Assembly: GCF_000203815.1 (NCBI RefSeq)
Contig: NW_004457695.1
Coordinates: 1,734,054-1,798,053, forward strand
Length of the DNA stretch: 64,000 nucleotides
Reading direction: 5' to 3'
From: Cavenderia fasciculata
Lineage: Eukaryota > Evosea > Eumycetozoa > Acytosteliales > Cavenderiaceae
Below the pieces are notes generated by a model. It was not told the origin of the DNA. It did not search any database and saw only the letters and a program-made list of their open reading frames with translations. Of this stretch, positions 5,106 to 36,580 are shown piece by piece; position 1 is the first letter of the stretch, and each line of letters starts with the position of its first letter. The translations under genes were made by a program, and so were the position numbers.

Positions 5106-6577
5106 TTAATCTAATAATTCTATTTGTTGTTGTTGATTTTCTTGTTCAACTTGTTGAAACAATTTAGCTATTATAATAGTTAACAAGAATAAAAGGGCAA
5201 ATGTACGATTGGAAATAAAGAATTTCATACATGATTGTGGACTATTGAAATCGACACTCAACATTTGATAGGCTAGGTGTGATGCACAGACAGCCGATCC
5301 AATATAATATTCCAAAGGCATAGATGATGCATATCCAGTTGCCAACATGGCAGCAACGGTCAATGCAGAGAATGCACTAAGAATGACTCTACTACGATCA
5401 CCAAATGCCAATGCGGTTGATTTTACACCAACCGAGACATCATCTTTTTTGTCCATATGAGCATAGATTGTATCATAAACCATTGTCCATGAAATACCAG
5501 CCAAATACAGTGGTAGTACAACCGACCAATCACAACTACCAACCACCGCAGAATATCCAACCAATGCACCCCAATTAAATGCCAATCCCAATACAAATTG
5601 TGGATAATAGGTAAATCTTTTCATAAATGGATACATAATTACAATTGGTACTGATGCCATTGCTAATATTATTCTAAAAACATAATAATAATAATAAAAG
5701 AGGTAAGATGATAATGATCTTTAGACCTTTGGGTTAATTTGAATTAATCAATCAATGATTCTTACGTATAATTATTAAAAGTTAAAAGTATACCAAAAGA
5801 GGTTAATAATTGAGCAGATAATAAAGCAAATGCTTGACGATGACTTAGAGCACTTGATGCCAATGGTCTAAGTTTGGTTCGTTCCACCTTTCTATCAAAC
5901 TTGTAATCGGCCATATCATTGATGACACATCCAGCCGATCTCATCATAAATGCACCGGCCGTAAACATGAGCATCAACTTTAGATCTGGTAAATGACCAG
6001 GGTCAGCAGCCAAAGCAGTACTCCATAAACATGGATAAAGTAACAATAGTGTACCAATAGGTTTATCCAATCTCGACAAAAATATATATGGTTGAATTGA
6101 TTTTGGTAATTTACTAATCCATTCTGGTGTTGTCGTTGATATAGTAGTTGTTGTATTTGTAGTTGTATTTGATGAAGTTGATAAATATCTATTATTATTA
6201 TTATTATAAAGTTGTGGTTGATTATTATTATTATTATTTACATGTATGATTGATCTTTCTTTTCTAGTTGCTATTAACAATGATGATTTGTTTTGATTTG
6301 TAAAGTCTCTAATTAAGCGACGATTGAAACAACTAGCAGAAGCAGTAGATGATAAAGACAAAGAAGTAGAAGACGAGAATAATGAAGTGAAATGTACTGC
6401 TGTTGCTGTTGCTGGTGTAGAACAACTAATATCTTTCTTTTGTTTTAAACTGTAGTCGAATCTATTTGTAGTAGCAGTAGTCGTAGTCGAGTATGAAGAT
6501 TGTGTTGATGATTGTGATTTTACCACAAAAGATGGTGCTACCAAACTGCGACACAATGATCGCGATACCACCAACAT
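5106..6577 (-). CDS. coq2: 4-hydroxybenzoate polyprenyltransferase, mitochondrial
   Basis: COQ2 attaches the polyprenyl chain to 4-hydroxybenzoate in ubiquinone synthesis, in the inner mitochondrial membrane. Two minus-strand exons: 5766-6577 and 5106-5673 (donor AC|GTAAGA), 459 residues. The first about 150 residues are a Ser/Thr/Asn-rich presequence, then SIQPYIFLSRLDKPIGTLLL opens the UbiA domain. The first Asp-rich motif is NDMADYKFDRKVERTKLRP and the second is DTIYAHMDKKDD, both intact and both needed for Mg-diphosphate binding in the UbiA family. Several membrane helices follow in exon 2. The presequence is much longer than in yeast or human because of low-complexity runs. COQ2 is preferred over other UbiA members by the motif context. 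Confidence 0.94.
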
Positions 6578-8572
6578 ATCTATCTATCTGTCTATCTGTC
6601 TATACCCTTTTGAAGAGACTAACAAAAGTAATAATAATAATAATATCTTTAAGGTCCTTCCTCCAATGAATGATCAATGTCGGCTAAAGTCATTGTAGTT
6701 TGTTTTATCCGACCGACTTTTAAAAAGACACAAAGATTTTTGTGTTTAGAGGTTTCCATTGCGTAATGCTGCTGCAGAATCACTTCAAAAGAACACGTTT
6801 CGATGATGATACGCGTCAAACAAATCATTTCTTTTTTTTTTTAGCCCTGGTAATAAATAATAACCAAAACTATGGTACCTAATATTCGAGAGACTTTTAA
6901 CTAAAATTGATTAATTGAGTTATAAATGAGAGACGAATGTTGGTATACACTCTGTGACAGTCCCAATGACCGACCCGATTTCTCCAGATTTTGGTGTTAG
7001 GGAAGACATGCTACGTCACCTCAAACTTAAAAATCGGTTTTTTACTTTGGTCTCAAGCTTGAGAATCTTGCAAGAAAAAATCAATGATTCATCGTTGGTT
7101 GTGGGGATGACAAAGCAAATTGTAATTGATTTTTTTGAAGTTAAGTTGCAAAAAGCGAGGAACAGGAAAAAAGATTGGAAGTTTTTTTTTTTTTTGTTCA
7201 TCTTTCTTTTTTGATATAGACAGACAGACACAGAGCATATAGCTTCATTACAGAGAGAGAAATAAGCAAACAAAGAGAGAAAAGCACATTCATCAGCAGA
7301 CACAGATTTGATTAAAGAAAAAGAGAGTAGGTTCTTCAATACATCAACCCACAACACTATAATGACAACAACAAACAAACACTGCAGTGTTAAAAAAAAA
7401 GAAGAAGAGCAACTTTTTGAAGGACTCACACAACAACAACAAAAACAAGCTTGTGGTGGGGGGTGAACCCAATCAAAAGAACAAACAACAACAAACAAAC
7501 AAACATCACGATCACATAGATACATATGTGGTAGTTGGCGATCACATTCTCTCTCTTTCTCTACTCATGGCTCACACACACACAGCAATGAAGAGATTCT
7601 ACTCAACTCCTCTCCTTTACTTCTTTCTATTATTATCACCAATATAACCATAAGCGTGGTTTAATAATAATAATAATAATAATAATTAATAATAAGCTGG
7701 CATGGCATCAGGCTACAACCAACAACCAACAACATCCATCTTCACTTTTGGTTTTATATTTTATCCAAGACGCGAAGAATCAAGTAATATAATATAAATA
7801 ATAGTACTATTATTATTTATTTCATTAAAAGGTACACTACCTACCTACCTACCAACCAACTTTGTTGGTACCCAGATAGAAGAGAGAGTGGGAAACACAT
7901 CTATCACACCACACAACACACTCACAGAGACACCATGCCACCTTCACCACGCACATTGTGAATCATCAATTCAAGTTTTATTTTGGTGATATTACAGATA
8001 GAAAAAAAAACACACATATATATATATATAATTTATATTTATGTGTTTGGTGTTGTGAAAACAACAAGAATAAAAGAAGAAGGAATTAAAAAAAGGAGGG
8101 GAGGTAGGATAGATAGATACATACAACACATACAACATTAGTAATAGTAGTAAAGTGATATATAGACATTTATATAAACCAACCAACTGAACAAATAATT
8201 ATAATAACAACATACATACATCGAACAATCCCAAAACATAAACAACCATACTGGAATATCACACCAAACCACCCACCATAAATATTTAGATTATTCTTTT
8301 TTTGGTTGTTGTTTGTTCTTGTTCTTCTTTTTTCTCTTTATTTATTAAACCGTTGTAACGGATAATAATACTACTCTAGTTTTGATCATCACACTCATTA
8401 CAATCAATCAATCAATTCTAATGTTTACTTTTACTTTGTTTTAAAATCAATTCACACTAACTAACTTTAAACTTTTTACCCCCTAATTTACTTTCTTTCT
8501 TTCTTTCTTTTAAAAAAAGAACAAAAACAAAAAGTCTCTCTTTTTCAATACAATACAATAACAACAACAACA
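6578..8572. other. 2-kb divergent region: COQ2 promoter and long bZIP leader
   Basis: Nothing here has a convincing gene. About 6640-7180 is less AT-rich; an 86-codon open frame at 6954-7214 runs into a T tract and is not accepted. From 7200 the plus strand becomes CA/GA-rich with GAGA, CAAC and CACA tracts, AAT repeats at 7662-7693, a TA run at about 8017-8030 and CTTT repeats at 8495-8510, ending in CAACAACAACAACA before the bZIP start. This fits a long 5' leader and promoter for a regulated gene. Confidence 0.5.
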
Positions 8573-27627: not shown

Positions 27628-29726
27628 TTAATTTGAAAGAGAAACAGCCATTAAAGAAGCAAAGATAGTCATGATCATCTTTGTTTTAAGTTCAACGATA
27701 TCTTCTGGAAGGGCAAAGATGACGGCACCAACCTTACGAGCAGTGGAGACGGCGAGCTTGGCATTGAGGAGGTTGTCAGCAGCTGAACCAGAGTGAGCGA
27801 CGAGCGATTGATCGACTGAATTTGGACGAATAGCTTCAATGAGGTCGAGGATTGGGATGGCATTGGTGAGTGCTTCATCCTTAAAGTTGTTGAAACCTTT
27901 CTTGCCATTGTTTTTGAGTGTGGTGTTGGCCCAATCAATGATATCAGTATCATTGATGGGTTTACCAGTTCCGCTGAGTTGGTTGATGATCGAGATGATA
28001 TGAGCTCTCATCAATTGGAAGACAATCGACAAGATTGGGTTCTTGTTACGATCGTAAACATTCTTGCCATCAATACCAACCAAAGAAAACTTGGTAGCCT
28101 TGCCGAGTTGGATGGCATAGTTGCAGTTTTCGAGTTTCTTCATCTCGGCACCCATAGCCTTGAATGGTGGGTAGTTGACTTTTTTGTGATCGACCAATCC
28201 TGGGAAGATCTTGTCAAAGAGTTGGATCAAAACCAAACCATCATAGAGACCTTCGTAGAGGTTGTTGACAAATGGGTCGACACCAAGAGAGTTCATCCAG
28301 TTACGGAATGCCTTTTCTTCACGTGTCTCTTCGATAATGACTACATCCTTGACTGGCTCGAGAGCTGGATGAGTGTTGAAGAGGTTTGCAACAAAAGCTA
28401 AATTCAACTTGGGATGACCATTGACAATGTCACGAGCCTTGAGGAACTTGCGACAGCCAAGCTTGTCGGCATTTTCGAGGACTAGACCAGCACGCTTCTC
28501 GAGGTTGTTTTCTTGGAGAGCACGAGTATCAACACCAGCATCCTTGGGTGCGATTTGCTTCAACAAGACGGTATAGTTTTCAGAGTCTTTAATGTCACCG
28601 GTAAAGTTCTTGACACGACGTGGATGACCGGCGGCAGCGAGATGATAATTGAACCAACGCAACAAGATTTCTTCAACTGGCAATCTGAGGAGATCTTCAA
28701 TGGTCTCTCCATCTTGCAAGAGACGGTAGAGTTCTGGGTGATTGGTAAGATTGATCTTGGCAAAGAGACCAATCTTGATGATTTGCCAGACGAGACCCAT
28801 AATCAAATGAGCTCTTCCCTCCATGAGATCGGCCGCACCGATGTTGACGGTAGAACATCCAATAGCCTTGGCAGAGTTAACACAGAGTACTTGGTTTTCA
28901 TTGACACGGAAAGTATTGAGATTCTTTTTGTTTAATACACGTTCATCAATAGTCTCTGGAACAGAGTCATTGATAAGTTTGCACAACAACAAACCATCAT
29001 AACATGCCTTAAAGAATGCTTCTCCATCTTCTGGAATGGGAAGTCTATCCTTCAAGTCTGCATCCTTTCCAAGACAATTATTAATCCAATCGATAAATGC
29101 ATGAGTTTCATCATCTGAATAAGAGTGAGTAGTTCCAGATGATGTACTACCTGAATAACCTCCAATTGTATTGACTTGTCCTACTTTTTTTACAACTTTA
29201 AAATTTTTATACATCCCAAATAGAAATAGAAATTAATTAATAATGAATAATGAATAAATAATAAGACATTTTTGTAAGTTTTGAAAGAAAGAAAAAAAAA
29301 ATGTAATATTATAATATATATATATTATTTTATAGATAAAAGATAAAATTTGTTACAACGAATGAAAGTAGTTGTGGGTATAGATTTTTTTTTTTTACAA
29401 AAGATTAGATAGCAATGAAATATATATATATATATATATATTATTTGTTTGATTTGTTTTTACATACCATTAGCAAATGATGGTGAACTAGCAGCAGTTG
29501 ATTTCTTTGAGATTTCCATAACCTTGATGAATTCTTCAAACTCGATTGAACCACTATTGTCAGTATCAACTTCTTTGATCATGTCTCTTACTTGAAGACC
29601 AGTAACCTTTTCACCAAGTGCATTGAGAATCTTTGTCAATTCTACTGCACTAATGGATCCATCGCCATTTTCATCAAACTTGTTGAATTGTTCTTTAAAT
29701 TCCTTTACTTCGGATGCAGAGAATGT
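27628..29726 (-). CDS. fimA: fimbrin/plastin, actin bundler (start exon uncertain)
   Basis: Fimbrin cross-links actin filaments into bundles. Two certain minus-strand exons: 29468-29726 and 27628-29180 (donor AATG|GTATGT; acceptor GTAG|GACAAG), 603 residues. Exon 29468-29726 carries two calcium-binding EF-hands: DENGDGSISAVE and DTDNSGSIEFEE, both with intact loops. The long exon carries four calponin-homology domains: first SDDETHAFIDWINNCLG with VPETIDERVLNKKNL, then ILLRWFNYHLAAAG, then REEKAFRNWMNSLGV and finally INDTDIIDWANTTLK, ending VELKTKMIMTIFASLMA as in plastin. The first of these exons has no in-frame Met at its start, so a short 5' exon must exist; see 29904-29993. Confidence 0.95.
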
Positions 29727-30252: not shown

Positions 30253-32241
30253 TTAAAAAGAATGGAGTAATAGTACTATCACTGGTATCATAGCACTAAA
30301 CAAGAGTGTTAACATTACATAGTTCTCTTTACAATATGATACAAAATTAAATCGATTGGTTTGTTTTGATTTCTTGTTTGTTTGACGTTGATTATGATGA
30401 TGGTGATGATTACCTCCTTTTTTATGTTTAATAGGAGTAGTTAGAATATTATTATTATTAATTCTTTGTTTTGATTGTTGTAATTGTTTTGGTGAAATTG
30501 GTATATTATTATTAGTAGTATTATTATTATCTATTTTTTCTTCTTCCTCTTCTTCTTCTTTTTGATTATTATTATTTTCAATACAAGATGTTTTAGGTGT
30601 GATTATTGTTAATGTTTGTTGTTGTTGTTGTTGTTGAAGTGATTCATCCAAAGAATCCTCCTTTATATTTTCAATTTTCTTTTCTATTATCTTTTCTTTT
30701 TCTTTTTCCTTTTCTTTTTCCTTTTCCTTTTCTTTTTCTTCTTTTTTAATTGGTTTCTCAATTTGTGGAGATTGACCAATAGTTGCAAGTGAAGGTGATG
30801 AAACAGAAGTCAACATATTTGCCTTGTATTCAATACCAACACTTGGTATTGATGTTGGAAGTGACTCTTCAACATTTGAATGTGATTTATAATGTCTTGA
30901 TGAAGAAGAGGAGGATGGAGTTGATGATGGTAAAAGAGGTATTGGTGGTAATGAATTTGAAACCAACGTCGTTGTTTGAGTTGTTGTTGTTGTTGGTAAA
31001 ACTGATTCCAATGGTATTGACAATGGAATTGGTAGTAAATCAACAGATGTTAAACATATAGATGGAGTGGTGGTGGTGGTTGGGGTTGGGATTGTGATTG
31101 GGATTGGGAATGCGTTTGATTTCTTCTTTTCCATTGGTACCTTGAATTGTTGATAAGGAGATGATGAACAAGAAGAAGAAGGTGATGGAGATACCAATGA
31201 AGATGTTGAAATACTCTTTTTATGAGAGAATGCCTCTTTTTTCTGTTTGTTTGGGTTGTTGTTGTTGATGTTACCATTTGCGTTTGAATTTAATGATTGA
31301 GCACTATATTCTCTTAATAATTTAGGTGATTGTTGAATTGTGTTGGTTTTGACGGTACCGTTGGGTAAAGGAGAGGGAGGTGCCATCGACGGTGACATGG
31401 TTGCAGCTTGTTTATGTGATGTATATTTAAATATTCTACCTTGAATAAAACTAGACAACTCTGTCGATGTCTTTTCAATCATTTCTTGATTTTCACTTGA
31501 TTTGTTCCAAATACTAACAATATGTCTATTTGGTCTAACTGCCAAAACAAATCCACACTAATTCAATCAACAAACAAGTAAGTACATATATCATAATAAT
31601 AATATAATATCTTTTGTTTTTTTTTTAAGACTTACAACATCAAGACCAAATTCCAATTGTTCACCAATTAAAGTTAGAATGGATCTCATTACAATATTAC
31701 TTGATTGTTCTTTTGTACACATTAAAGAATATTTTCCACCATTTTCATTGGCTGGATCCTCCCATGTCGGTGCAATACCAGCTTTAAATAATCTTAGATT
31801 GGCACCAATTGGAAATAATGAAACATCTACTATATTATTCCAATATCTCCAAAATCCCTAAAATAAACATAAATTAGATTAGAGACAATTGTATAGTTTT
31901 TATATATTTGTACATACTTGAACAGAATTAAATGAACCTAAATTCTTTATATGAGATTGATAATCATCACATGAAGCACCTTTTGGTACACCTTCATCAT
32001 AATAAAATACCCATTCACATTCCAAATATATTTCCTTTGGTTCTTCAACCTCCTGGCCACCTCCACTTGATTTTATATTGTTGTTGTTTTCATTATTGAT
32101 TGATTTTTGATTCAATTCTGCTTCATCAATAAATAAAGTTGAAGGTGATAAAGTTGTTCCATTACTATGATCAGGTTGATATTTTACATTATTGGTTGTA
32201 TTATTACAAGATGCAGAGTCAATTGTTGCTTGATAACTCAT
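30253..32241 (-). CDS. 4EHP/eIF4E class II-like cap-binding protein with C-terminal membrane anchor
   Basis: Three minus-strand exons, all phase 0: 31918-32241, 31636-31857 and 30253-31557, 616 residues. Residues about 70-230 are an eIF4E fold: ECEWVFYYDEG, SHIKNLGSFNSVQGFWRYW, LFKAGIAPTWEDPANENGG (the second cap-stacking Trp), LTLIGEQLEFGLDVVCGFVL and IVSIWNKSSEN. The first cap-binding position appears as Tyr (CDDYQSH), as in 4EHP/eIF4E2. SIWNK is also the 4EHP form. A low-complexity tail of about 360 residues follows, with Lys/Glu, Asn and His runs and a Lys-rich patch, and the protein ends in one hydrophobic helix, YVMLTLLFSAMIPVIVLLL, then HSF. The last exon is one uninterrupted frame, so the anchor is not an artefact of joining. 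4EHP represses translation of chosen mRNAs; a membrane-anchored form is unusual. Confidence 0.85.
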
Positions 32242-33961: not shown

Positions 33962-35923
33962 TTATTTTTTTGGAGTAGGTGTAACAGCACCTCTTTTCTG
34001 TAAAACAGGGGCTGGTTGAATATTTTGTTGAGCTTTTTGCTGTTGTAATTGCATTTGGTAGGTATCTGATGCTTTTGGGATAATTTCTCCAACACCAACG
34101 GCCCCATGAAAATAAGTGTACTTTGATTTCGATGGAAATGTCGCGTCCCAAGAGTTACTATTAATGTCATATATAAAATTGGTTGGATGTTTGCCACCAA
34201 TGAGATAGATTTTGGGAAAGTTATTGACAAATCCAAATACAAGGGACAGACCAAATTTACCATCACGGACTGGTACCTCTGCAAGTGATTCTGCTTTTCT
34301 TGTAAATACAGAGAATCTACAAAACTCTGTACTTGTAAGAAAGTAAATGTATTCTCTTTTATCAAAACAAAACCCTTCAACACGTGAAGAACTATTGTTA
34401 AATTGATAGATTTGTTTTGATGACCCGTCTGAAATACTAAATGCTTCAATGTCATTCACCATTGTATATGCTTTTTCTGGTTCTTTATGGGTACCTCCAA
34501 TCACATAAATGATACCATCTAGATAACAAGCAAAACAATAATAACGAGGACGTTTGAGTTGACCGAGATTTGAACATCTACCAGTCATAATATCAAATCT
34601 ATCGACACGACCCAATGTATTATTATTTTGGATACCACCAACTAGGTATATATAACGACCTTCATCCCAAACGGCTGCCATTGATGAACCACCAGTGGTT
34701 TGAATATTATCCAAGCAATCCCATTTACCAGAATAAAGATCCATTCTTTCATAGGTTGACAAGGAGTCATTACCACCAAAAATGTATACATAATCTAGGA
34801 TTGATACAACAGATGATGATGAGCATGCACGTTTCATTCTTGAACCTTCTGCAAGCCCCCATCTGTTTTGTTGAATATCATATACCTCTACCAATGATAA
34901 ATGTTGTGTATTCTCCATTCCACACAAACAGTAAATATATCTAATTGTATTCTCTTTGATATATTTCTCTGTACTTTCATTACCTACCGACAAATCATTT
35001 ACAACGAGCTCACATGCCTGTCTAAGATAATTCATTGATTTACTAACAACTGTATCATTTACCATAAATTCATATTTGGTTGGTTTTGGTGGTGGTGCTG
35101 GTGTTGTTGTTGTTGTTGTAACTATTACACTTTCTGTATTATTATTATTATTGATGGTTGAGAGAGGAGGAGTAGGAGATTGTGAAATTAAATGATCATT
35201 TTGTTTTGAGACCAAAAATATATCATTTTGAACATTTAATTGATTCCACTGATCCATCAGATGACCAAGATGAGTGTATTCAAATGAGGAGTATGCAATA
35301 TCATTATTAAGATTGTTTGAAATGAATTTGTTGATTGATGATTCTCTATTTACTTCATCGATGAAATCCTCGGTGGTCATTTTAATCACGTGGGGGTTGA
35401 TTGTATGAAATTGAGCACCTGATATGTACTGTGTCGAGAAACTAGAGTTGGCAGGCATAGGGGCAGCACCGTGCTTTTCAGAGGCATAGATCTTTGACAC
35501 TGTATCAAATGTTGGTGTTTGACTTGCAAAATACTTGTAGTAAGTGTCTGGACGGACAATGGTTTTGGGCGTGATCGATACTGGTACTATCTGAAGGCTT
35601 TCAGGTTTGTTAACAATCGGTACCTGAAGGCTTTCAGATTTGTTAACAATCGGTGGTGATGGTGGTGGTAGTGATGGAGAGGGTGAGGTGCCCGAGAGAT
35701 CGTACTTCTTCCAACCAATCTCTAAATCTTTAAGTCTCTGTATCTTGTGTCCATTGTGTGTCTCTACGATACAGTCACCGCACACAAACACGTTGCATTG
35801 AGTGCAGAACCATTTCAACGACTCTTGCGAGTGTACAGTACACTTTTGAGAATCGATTCCTGATGAATTGGGTGGTGACGATGCATTTGGTTTTGTAGTA
35901 GATAAATATGTTGGTGAGGTCAT
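33962..35923 (-). CDS. B-box zinc finger / kelch repeat protein, left copy
   Basis: Single exon, 653 residues. The B-box is at about 27-65: CTVHSQESLKWF, then CTQCNVFVCGDC and ETHNGH provide the zinc ligands. Residues about 75-130 are Pro/Ser-rich with a doubled VNKPESLQ-type unit. From about 330 to 600 come kelch-type repeats (YCLCGMENTQHLSLVEVYD, YIFGGNDSLSTYERMD, YLVGGIQNNNTLGRVDRFD, YVIGGTHKEPEKAY, YLIGGKHPTNFIYD). It ends in a Gln-rich tail. It is an inverted, near-identical paralog of the gene at 36581-39042 but lacks about 390 bases of linker after the B-box and has no 5' intron. B-box/kelch proteins form a large dictyostelid family; function unknown, possibly protein-interaction scaffolds or ubiquitin-ligase adaptors. 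Confidence 0.9.
   Translation of the reverse strand: MTSPTYLSTTKPNASSPPNSSGIDSQKCTVHSQESLKWFCTQCNVFVCGDCIVETHNGHKIQRLKDLEIGWKKYDLSGTSPSPSLPPPSPPIVNKSESLQVPIVNKPESLQIVPVSITPKTIVRPDTYYKYFASQTPTFDTVSKIYASEKHGAAPMPANSSFSTQYISGAQFHTINPHVIKMTTEDFIDEVNRESSINKFISNNLNNDIAYSSFEYTHLGHLMDQWNQLNVQNDIFLVSKQNDHLISQSPTPPLSTINNNNNTESVIVTTTTTTPAPPPKPTKYEFMVNDTVVSKSMNYLRQACELVVNDLSVGNESTEKYIKENTIRYIYCLCGMENTQHLSLVEVYDIQQNRWGLAEGSRMKRACSSSSVVSILDYVYIFGGNDSLSTYERMDLYSGKWDCLDNIQTTGGSSMAAVWDEGRYIYLVGGIQNNNTLGRVDRFDIMTGRCSNLGQLKRPRYYCFACYLDGIIYVIGGTHKEPEKAYTMVNDIEAFSISDGSSKQIYQFNNSSSRVEGFCFDKREYIYFLTSTEFCRFSVFTRKAESLAEVPVRDGKFGLSLVFGFVNNFPKIYLIGGKHPTNFIYDINSNSWDATFPSKSKYTYFHGAVGVGEIIPKASDTYQMQLQQQKAQQNIQPAPVLQKRGAVTPTPKK
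34004..35609 (-). repeat. inverted repeat, left arm (1,606 bp)
   Basis: The kelch half of the left gene matches the right gene (37428-39033) in inverted orientation. Both arms are exactly 1,606 bp by my end points, and sampled stretches differ by only a few percent, so there is no net gain or loss of bases across the arm. Confidence 0.85.
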
Positions 35924-36580
35924 ATTGTTGTTGTTGTTGTAAAAAATTAATTTTTAAAAAATATAAAAAATTAAAATAAATGATTATATTATTATTATTA
36001 TTATTTATTATTCTTTTTCTCTGGATATTTATTTTTTTCTTTAAACTTATTATTTTTTTTCTCTTCTTCTTTTCGTTTTAAACTTATAATTTTAAACAAA
36101 TTCTGTCTATATGATAGTTTAAATTTGAGTCATGTTGATTCGCGTTGTCACCTTATTATTAATACCAGATTTGGAAAAAAAAGTCAAATCAAAGGGCCAA
36201 ACAATATTGAATTTTTAGGTTCGACATTCGATTTTTTTTGTATGGCTCAGAACGTATAAAGTTAGTTTGGTCATTTGTTAAATAGTACAATTATTATTTA
36301 TCCATCTAGTATTGATATATGTTTAACAATAGGAACACCCAAGAAGAAGAAGAAGATTACTGACAAATTTCATACCCAATTACACAAGTAAGAATAGAAT
36401 AAACAAAAAAAAACAAAACTTTTTAAAATGGGATGAACACATTACTAATACTTCCCATTTGGTTATTTAGCATCTCTCAAGTTTAATCATCCTTTATCAT
36501 CAATCAGTTCAGCAATCTAATCTCAATTCAGTCTAAAGTATAATACAATAACCCAACAACCCAGTCGCAAATACCCAACT
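35924..36580. other. divergent promoter between the two kelch genes
   Basis: 657 bases between two head-to-head paralogs. AT-rich with ATT and T runs at 35990-36060, and no coding sequence. The two halves were not seen to be inverted copies of each other, so the duplication did not obviously include both promoters. Confidence 0.5.

Follow-up and report, generated by a model that had tools for sequence, protein, structure and literature searches.

Can a member of the eIF4E family be built into a membrane by its own C-terminus? eIF4E-family proteins are regarded as soluble, and the question is raised by a gene of Cavenderia fasciculata that joins an eIF4E domain, through a long low-complexity region, to a very hydrophobic end. 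The gene lies in a 64,000-nucleotide stretch of contig NW_004457695.1 (assembly GCF_000203815.1, positions 1,734,054 to 1,798,053 of the forward strand), which is referred to as the window and supplies the coordinates used here unless a contig is named. The window's eIF4E gene is designated gene C; its paralogues in the same genome are genes A, B, D, E and F.

Gene structure and the hydrophobic C-terminus

The coordinates, strand and layout that an initial annotation, made by inspection of the DNA, had given for gene C are correct; the spliced model has three exons and encodes 616 amino acids, and its parts are these:

30253..32241, minus strand: complete coding sequence of gene C, 3 exons, 616 amino acids (splice model and PF01652 match)
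31918..32241, minus strand: exon 1, residues 1-108; low-complexity N-terminus and first part of the eIF4E domain, with the Trp-43 and Trp-56 positions
31858..31917, minus strand: intron 1, GTATGT..TTTTAG, 60 bases, phase 0; alignment column 161, as introns of paralogues E and F
31636..31857, minus strand: exon 2, residues 109-182; middle of the eIF4E domain, Trp-73, Trp-102 and Glu-103 positions
31558..31635, minus strand: intron 2, GTAAGT..AATTAG, 78 bases, phase 0; alignment column 249, as an intron of paralogue F
30253..31557, minus strand: exon 3, residues 183-616 and stop; last part of the eIF4E domain, then linker and tail helix, all in a single frame
31447..32025, minus strand: eIF4E domain (Pfam IF4E), residues 73-219, split by both introns
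30322..31446, minus strand: low-complexity linker, residues 220-594
30322..30411, minus strand: basic stretch preceding the helix, residues 565-594, 6 Lys/Arg and 1 Asp/Glu
30265..30321, minus strand: hydrophobic core of the tail helix, residues 595-613, mean Kyte-Doolittle hydropathy 2.55 (AlphaFold2 helix, residues 587-614)
30253..30264, minus strand: final residues His-Ser-Phe and TAA stop

Four splice combinations are possible, with products of 613-616 residues that differ by 1-3 residues; the 616-residue model is the one for which the usual donor hexamers, GTATGT and GTAAGT, were chosen. The eIF4E fold read from the letters alone is borne out by the match of the IF4E profile (PF01652) to residues 73-219 (E 8.2e-37; 126.8 bits against a curated cut-off of 28.7), and IF4E is the sole Pfam family found in the product at E up to 1. 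Gene model, domain and helix are computed from the DNA, as is the pattern of paralogy described below. On the minus strand, gene C is adjoined by a fimbrin-like gene (27628-29726) with EF hands and four calponin-homology stretches, and upstream of it lies a single ORF (33962-35953) in which a B-box zinc finger is followed by kelch repeats. Further off on the same strand is an ORF with hydrophobic stretches (5762-6583), the end of which we take to resemble a UbiA/COQ2 prenyltransferase motif.

The linker, put initially at about 360 low-complexity residues, comes to 375 and is rich in Ser, Lys, Thr, Asn, Pro, Ile, Glu and Gln. Windows of 19 residues with a mean Kyte-Doolittle hydropathy of at least 1.6 start at residues 593-598 and nowhere else in the protein, the best of them (2.55) covering residues 595-613 of 616; there is a single hydrophobic helix, near the C-terminus, and no second stretch. 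None of the 19 residues is charged, the 30 residues ahead of them contain 6 Lys/Arg and 1 Asp/Glu (the Lys/Arg-rich patch of the initial annotation), and His-Ser-Phe and the stop codon follow. Given the last 83 residues as a single sequence (mean pLDDT 67.5, pTM 0.32), AlphaFold2 makes residues 587-614 one helix, with block pLDDT of 85 to 94, and places a second helix at residues 5-17 of the piece, with blocks of only 52-57. Hydropathy scan and structure prediction thus agree on the C-terminal hydrophobic helix, three residues from the end, that had been noticed at the outset, and with its lone terminal helix and His-Ser-Phe end the product has the tail-anchor layout that had been proposed for it; insertion into a membrane is predicted from that layout. 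Like the tail-anchored proteins inserted by Get3/TRC40, it combines a single C-terminal helix and a very short end with a large N-terminal part; it differs from them in that this part is a translation-factor domain, and we know of no other tail-anchored protein with such an N-terminal part. A hydrophobic end might also serve as a cytosolic binding or degradation signal on a protein that stays out of the membrane. Nothing direct speaks for this, save that insertion of the helix is itself a prediction, and 19 uncharged residues with a mean hydropathy of 2.55 are typical of a membrane span; we give it very little chance.

Translation and rarity of the tail

Is the helix translated? A motif scan of the whole of exon 3 finds no GTAAG, GTATG or GT[AG][AT]GT donor; 11 of the 12 introns modelled across the six eIF4E genes start with GTAAG or GTATG. 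The open frame and the missing GTAAG or GTATG donor support the single unbroken final exon of the initial annotation. The twelfth intron, in paralogue F, starts with GTAAAG, so weak donors are in use in this genome, and 83 GTA..AG pairs of 40-400 bases in exon 3, all with weaker donors, terminate past the start of the helix. The neatest of the 83 runs for 118 bases from GTAATC at 30413 to GTTTAG at 30296, is 72% AT and shifts the frame. Since the final exon lacks a GTAAG or GTATG donor, splicing that skips the tail would be unlikely, though weaker donors are present; a hidden intron ahead of the helix was considered as a candidate, and in an exon without a strong donor the 83 weaker pairs leave it unlikely.

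The AT content of the helix codons (70%) is near that of exon 3 (69%) and below that of the introns of gene C (about 82-83%), the 12 modelled introns covered in the six eIF4E genes ranging from 73 to 86% (second intron of gene B left out). A codon score trained on two adjacent stop-to-stop ORFs, and covering exon 3 to codon 420, 14 codons short of its end, was computed for 14 blocks, each 30 codons long; the gene C frame comes out on top of the three same-strand frames in 13 of them, codons 181-210 being the exception. An AATAAA lies ~60 bases past the stop codon. Together, the donor scan, AT content, codon score and AATAAA make translation of the helix likely.

How unusual is such a tail? The window, read in six frames, contains 47,912 stop-free 19-mers, of which 538 (1.1%) reach a mean hydropathy of 2.5 and 3,067 reach 1.6. 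A larger ORF sample of 264 kb, made up of the window plus 20 stretches, each 10 kb long and placed at round coordinates, yields 119 non-overlapping stop-to-stop ORFs of at least 150 amino acids, which are not gene models and some of whose ends resemble intron or UTR sequence; 8 have a terminal helix at 1.6 or above, in 4 this helix is without another hydrophobic stretch, and at 2.5 or above the latter number is 2, gene C and one other. Because 2 of the 119 sampled ORFs show it, such a tail is uncommon in this genome, neither unique nor extraordinary; the unusual part is the domain to which it is attached. One sampled stretch (L012) encodes, at its positions 1149-1838 on the minus strand, a low-complexity ORF of 229 amino acids with a single terminal helix (2.54), possibly a second tail-anchored protein.

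With ~1% of the 19-mers of an AT-rich window equally hydrophobic, a functionless tail could therefore arise through loss of a stop codon. The helix of gene C might, then, be a species-specific read-on after such a loss, or be spliced out by way of a weak intron, with little or no function for the anchor. That the paralogous proteins terminate shortly past the eIF4E domain, or with a polar tail, and that weak GTA donors lie upstream of the helix would fit; the full tail-anchor layout of basic stretch, helix and three-residue end, the lower AT content of the helix codons relative to the gene's introns, and a reading frame that stays on top in nearly every block as far as codon 420 of exon 3 argue the other way, and we hold this explanation to be unlikely.

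Paralogues and the class of the gene C protein

The 21 contigs of the genome (31.0 Mb), all searched with the PF01652 profile, contain at least 9 matches, assigned to at least 6 eIF4E genes, both counts being lower bounds: gene A on contig C14 (C14:445k), B on C2, C in the window, D on C15 (matches at 460687-461130), E on C9 (275778-276208) and F on C5 (3313202-3313691 and flanks). In a structure-sequence search, gene A is class I, with 166.1 bits to Drosophila eIF4E and 111.7 to 4EHP, and gene B scores 99.1 bits with Drosophila eIF4E and 99.0 with 4EHP. Gene D, with 128.5 bits to 4EHP versus 92.9 to the next kind, and with Tyr-43 and Tyr-56 as in human 4EHP, reads as the clear 4EHP (class II) orthologue of the genome. 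Gene E is by its scores eIF4E3-like, or class III (106.6 bits to mouse eIF4E3 versus 87.3 to 4EHP), and gene F is diverged (56.2 bits to 4EHP, 50.3 to eIF4E). A Lys is aligned at the Trp-73 position of gene F, which may therefore depart from the usual mode of binding to eIF4G or 4E-BP partners. The accessible part of Joshi 2005 (PMC1260017) has class III known only from Metazoa; a member outside Metazoa, as gene E would be, would shift the origin of the class earlier. As modelled, none of the five paralogues carries a hydrophobic tail: the best 19-mer of the last 60 residues is at most 0.41, and none anywhere reaches 1.6. On the footing of these models, which stop at the first in-frame stop and could have a further exon, the anchor appears peculiar to gene C within this genome.

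In human eIF4E numbering, gene C has Trp-43, Tyr-46, Tyr-56, Trp-73, Trp-102, Glu-103, Lys-112, Met-131, Arg-132, Leu-135, Arg-157, Ile-162 and Trp-166. The family signature is complete (aromatic Tyr-56 and Trp-102, acidic Glu-103, basic Arg-157) at positions 56, 102, 103 and 157, which we take to have cap-pocket roles in eIF4E; as read from these residues the cap pocket is largely kept, and cap binding is predicted from them. Gene C has Val-Met-Arg at the place of Trp-Glu-Asn in 4EHP and gene B and of Trp-Glu-Asp in gene D, and its Lys-112 is common to human 4EHP, genes A, B, D and F, and wheat eIF4E. According to the portion of Joshi 2005 available to us (PMC1260017), class II has lost Trp-56 and, outside fungi, Trp-43 as well, with Tyr, Phe or Leu as the replacements at Trp-56 and, in metazoa and plants, at Trp-43; fungal class II members retain Trp-43. 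Class III, in the same portion and in what is available of a review of protist eIF4Es (PMC3388326), retains Trp-43, position 56 being Cys or Tyr. Trp-56 is replaced in gene C, by Tyr, as in class II, and Trp-43 is not; Trp-43 with Tyr at 56 is the combination of class III, and genes B, E and F have the pattern of gene C. By this rule the pattern of gene C is that of fungal class II or of class III, and not that of metazoan 4EHP.

A tree of 11 rows and 136 columns, with a reference set of 5 sequences, 2 of them partial, weakly pairs gene C with F, and not with 4EHP, at 79/83, not starred, F being a long branch; gene D joins human 4EHP (88/87) and gene E mouse eIF4E3 (95/92, starred). With F removed, gene C stands beside E and eIF4E3 at 58/82 (D-4EHP 91/89; E-eIF4E3 88/90). 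Placing gene C with eIF4E3 has an AU p of 0.345 in the tree that includes F, and without F three groupings of gene C, class I or class II among them, have AU p of 0.15, 0.22 and 0.35, so that neither a class I nor a class II position is rejected. The introns lie at columns 161 and 249 in C, 161, 205 and 249 in F, 161 and 223 in E, 159 and 230 in D, 159 and 165 in B, and 282 in A; thus both introns of gene C recur in F and one of them in E, and D, B and A have neither. Gene C is probably the sister of the contig C5 paralogue F and not a 4EHP orthologue.

The initial annotation had called the protein 4EHP-type and credited it with class II features. Of these, Tyr-56 and Ile-162 do stand as in human 4EHP, and Trp-43, which is retained, does not. 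A true class II 4EHP, tail-anchored and repressing mRNAs at the membrane, as that annotation proposed, would be in keeping with those two residues, with human 4EHP as the top structure match of gene C (102.8 bits), with an AU test that does not reject the grouping of gene C with D and 4EHP (p 0.11 with F, 0.15 without), and with the Trp-43 retained by fungal class II members in the part of Joshi 2005 cited above. Wheat eIF4E, however, is nearly tied at 99.3 bits, Val-Met-Arg stands in place of Trp-Glu-Asn, the intron columns are 161 and 249 as against 159 and 230 in D, and gene D is already the 4EHP orthologue. On account of the near-tied scores, the kept Trp-43 and gene D, the label 4EHP-type is unsupported as stated, and 4EHP was rejected as a family name for gene C, since gene D fits it far better; we consider a true 4EHP improbable.

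Set against each class in turn, gene C resembles eIF4E2/4EHP (class II) in its eIF4E domain, Tyr-56, Ile-162 and top structure match, and departs from it in Trp-43, in the absence of the 4EHP residues at 131-132, and in the long linker and tail helix. With eIF4E3 (class III) it has Trp-43 and Tyr-56 in common, and its first intron column with the eIF4E3-like gene E; it differs in having 28% identity to mouse eIF4E3 and Lys rather than Val at 112, and the clear relative of eIF4E3 is gene E. It is like eIF4E1 (class I) in Trp-102, Glu-103, Arg-157, Trp-73 and Trp-43 and unlike it in Tyr-56 and the altered 131, 132 and 162, the class I gene being A.

A putative cap-binding tether

The best explanation, to which we assign a probability of about 0.48, is that gene C encodes a diverged eIF4E paralogue turned tail-anchored protein, most likely of the ER, where it would hold capped mRNAs. 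A diverged paralogue would have acquired the long flexible linker and the C-terminal tail anchor. Its product would probably be inserted post-translationally, a Get3-type pathway delivering it to the ER or to the nuclear envelope continuous with it. The eIF4E domain would be exposed to the cytosol on a tether of ~375 residues, and capped mRNAs would be bound through the equivalents of Tyr-56, Trp-102 and Glu-103. Insertion, the choice of membrane, cap binding, eIF4G binding and the effect on translation are what we infer from the computed features. Positions 131 and 132 are, we assume, eIF4G contact sites, and their changes in gene C, unlike class I and 4EHP, may weaken eIF4G binding; with 131 (Met) and 132 (Arg) of the eIF4G-binding face altered, the product would more likely hold, sort or repress mRNAs at the membrane than start translation. 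It is the conjunction of the helix, the kept cap pocket and the changed 131 and 132 that favours a cap-binding tether at the ER or nuclear envelope. A Pfam search of the genome finds an ArsA/Get3-family ATPase gene on contig C17 (145.6 and 116 bits); as the family also matches in every one of 14 prokaryote control genomes, the gene is consistent with Get3 and not proof of it.

The membrane might instead be the mitochondrial outer membrane, at which the product would concentrate capped mRNAs for mitochondrial proteins. Many mitochondrial tail anchors have basic residues ahead of the helix, as gene C does; a very hydrophobic helix with no Lys or Arg after it, which gene C also has, favours the ER over mitochondria, and the mitochondrial site seems to us quite improbable.

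An eIF4E-domain scan finds no relative encoded in 3 viral and 28 prokaryote pattern stretches of the virus and prokaryote collections. Among the matches listed in a search of titles with eIF4E or 4EHP and membrane terms, which covers few subscription papers, no membrane-anchored eIF4E is named. The accessible sections of the protist eIF4E review (PMC3388326) describe amoebozoan eIF4Es as under-represented, and the word 'transmembrane' does not occur in them. The available text of PMC5862402 names Dictyostelium once, within a species list; that of PMC6161686 has eIF4E in four places, as GST-tagged mutants for pulling down capped RNA and otherwise in references.

Taken further, the ER reading of gene C suggests, tentatively and with some doubt, a dictyostelid tail-anchored cap receptor of the ER or nuclear envelope, which on its long tether would pick out capped mRNAs to be stored or translated locally, independently of the signal recognition particle. 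Dictyostelium is readily edited. If true, a membrane-built eIF4E would be a direct, testable means of holding capped mRNAs at an organelle, and an eIF4E paralogue would have gained a new role through a new address and not a new pocket.
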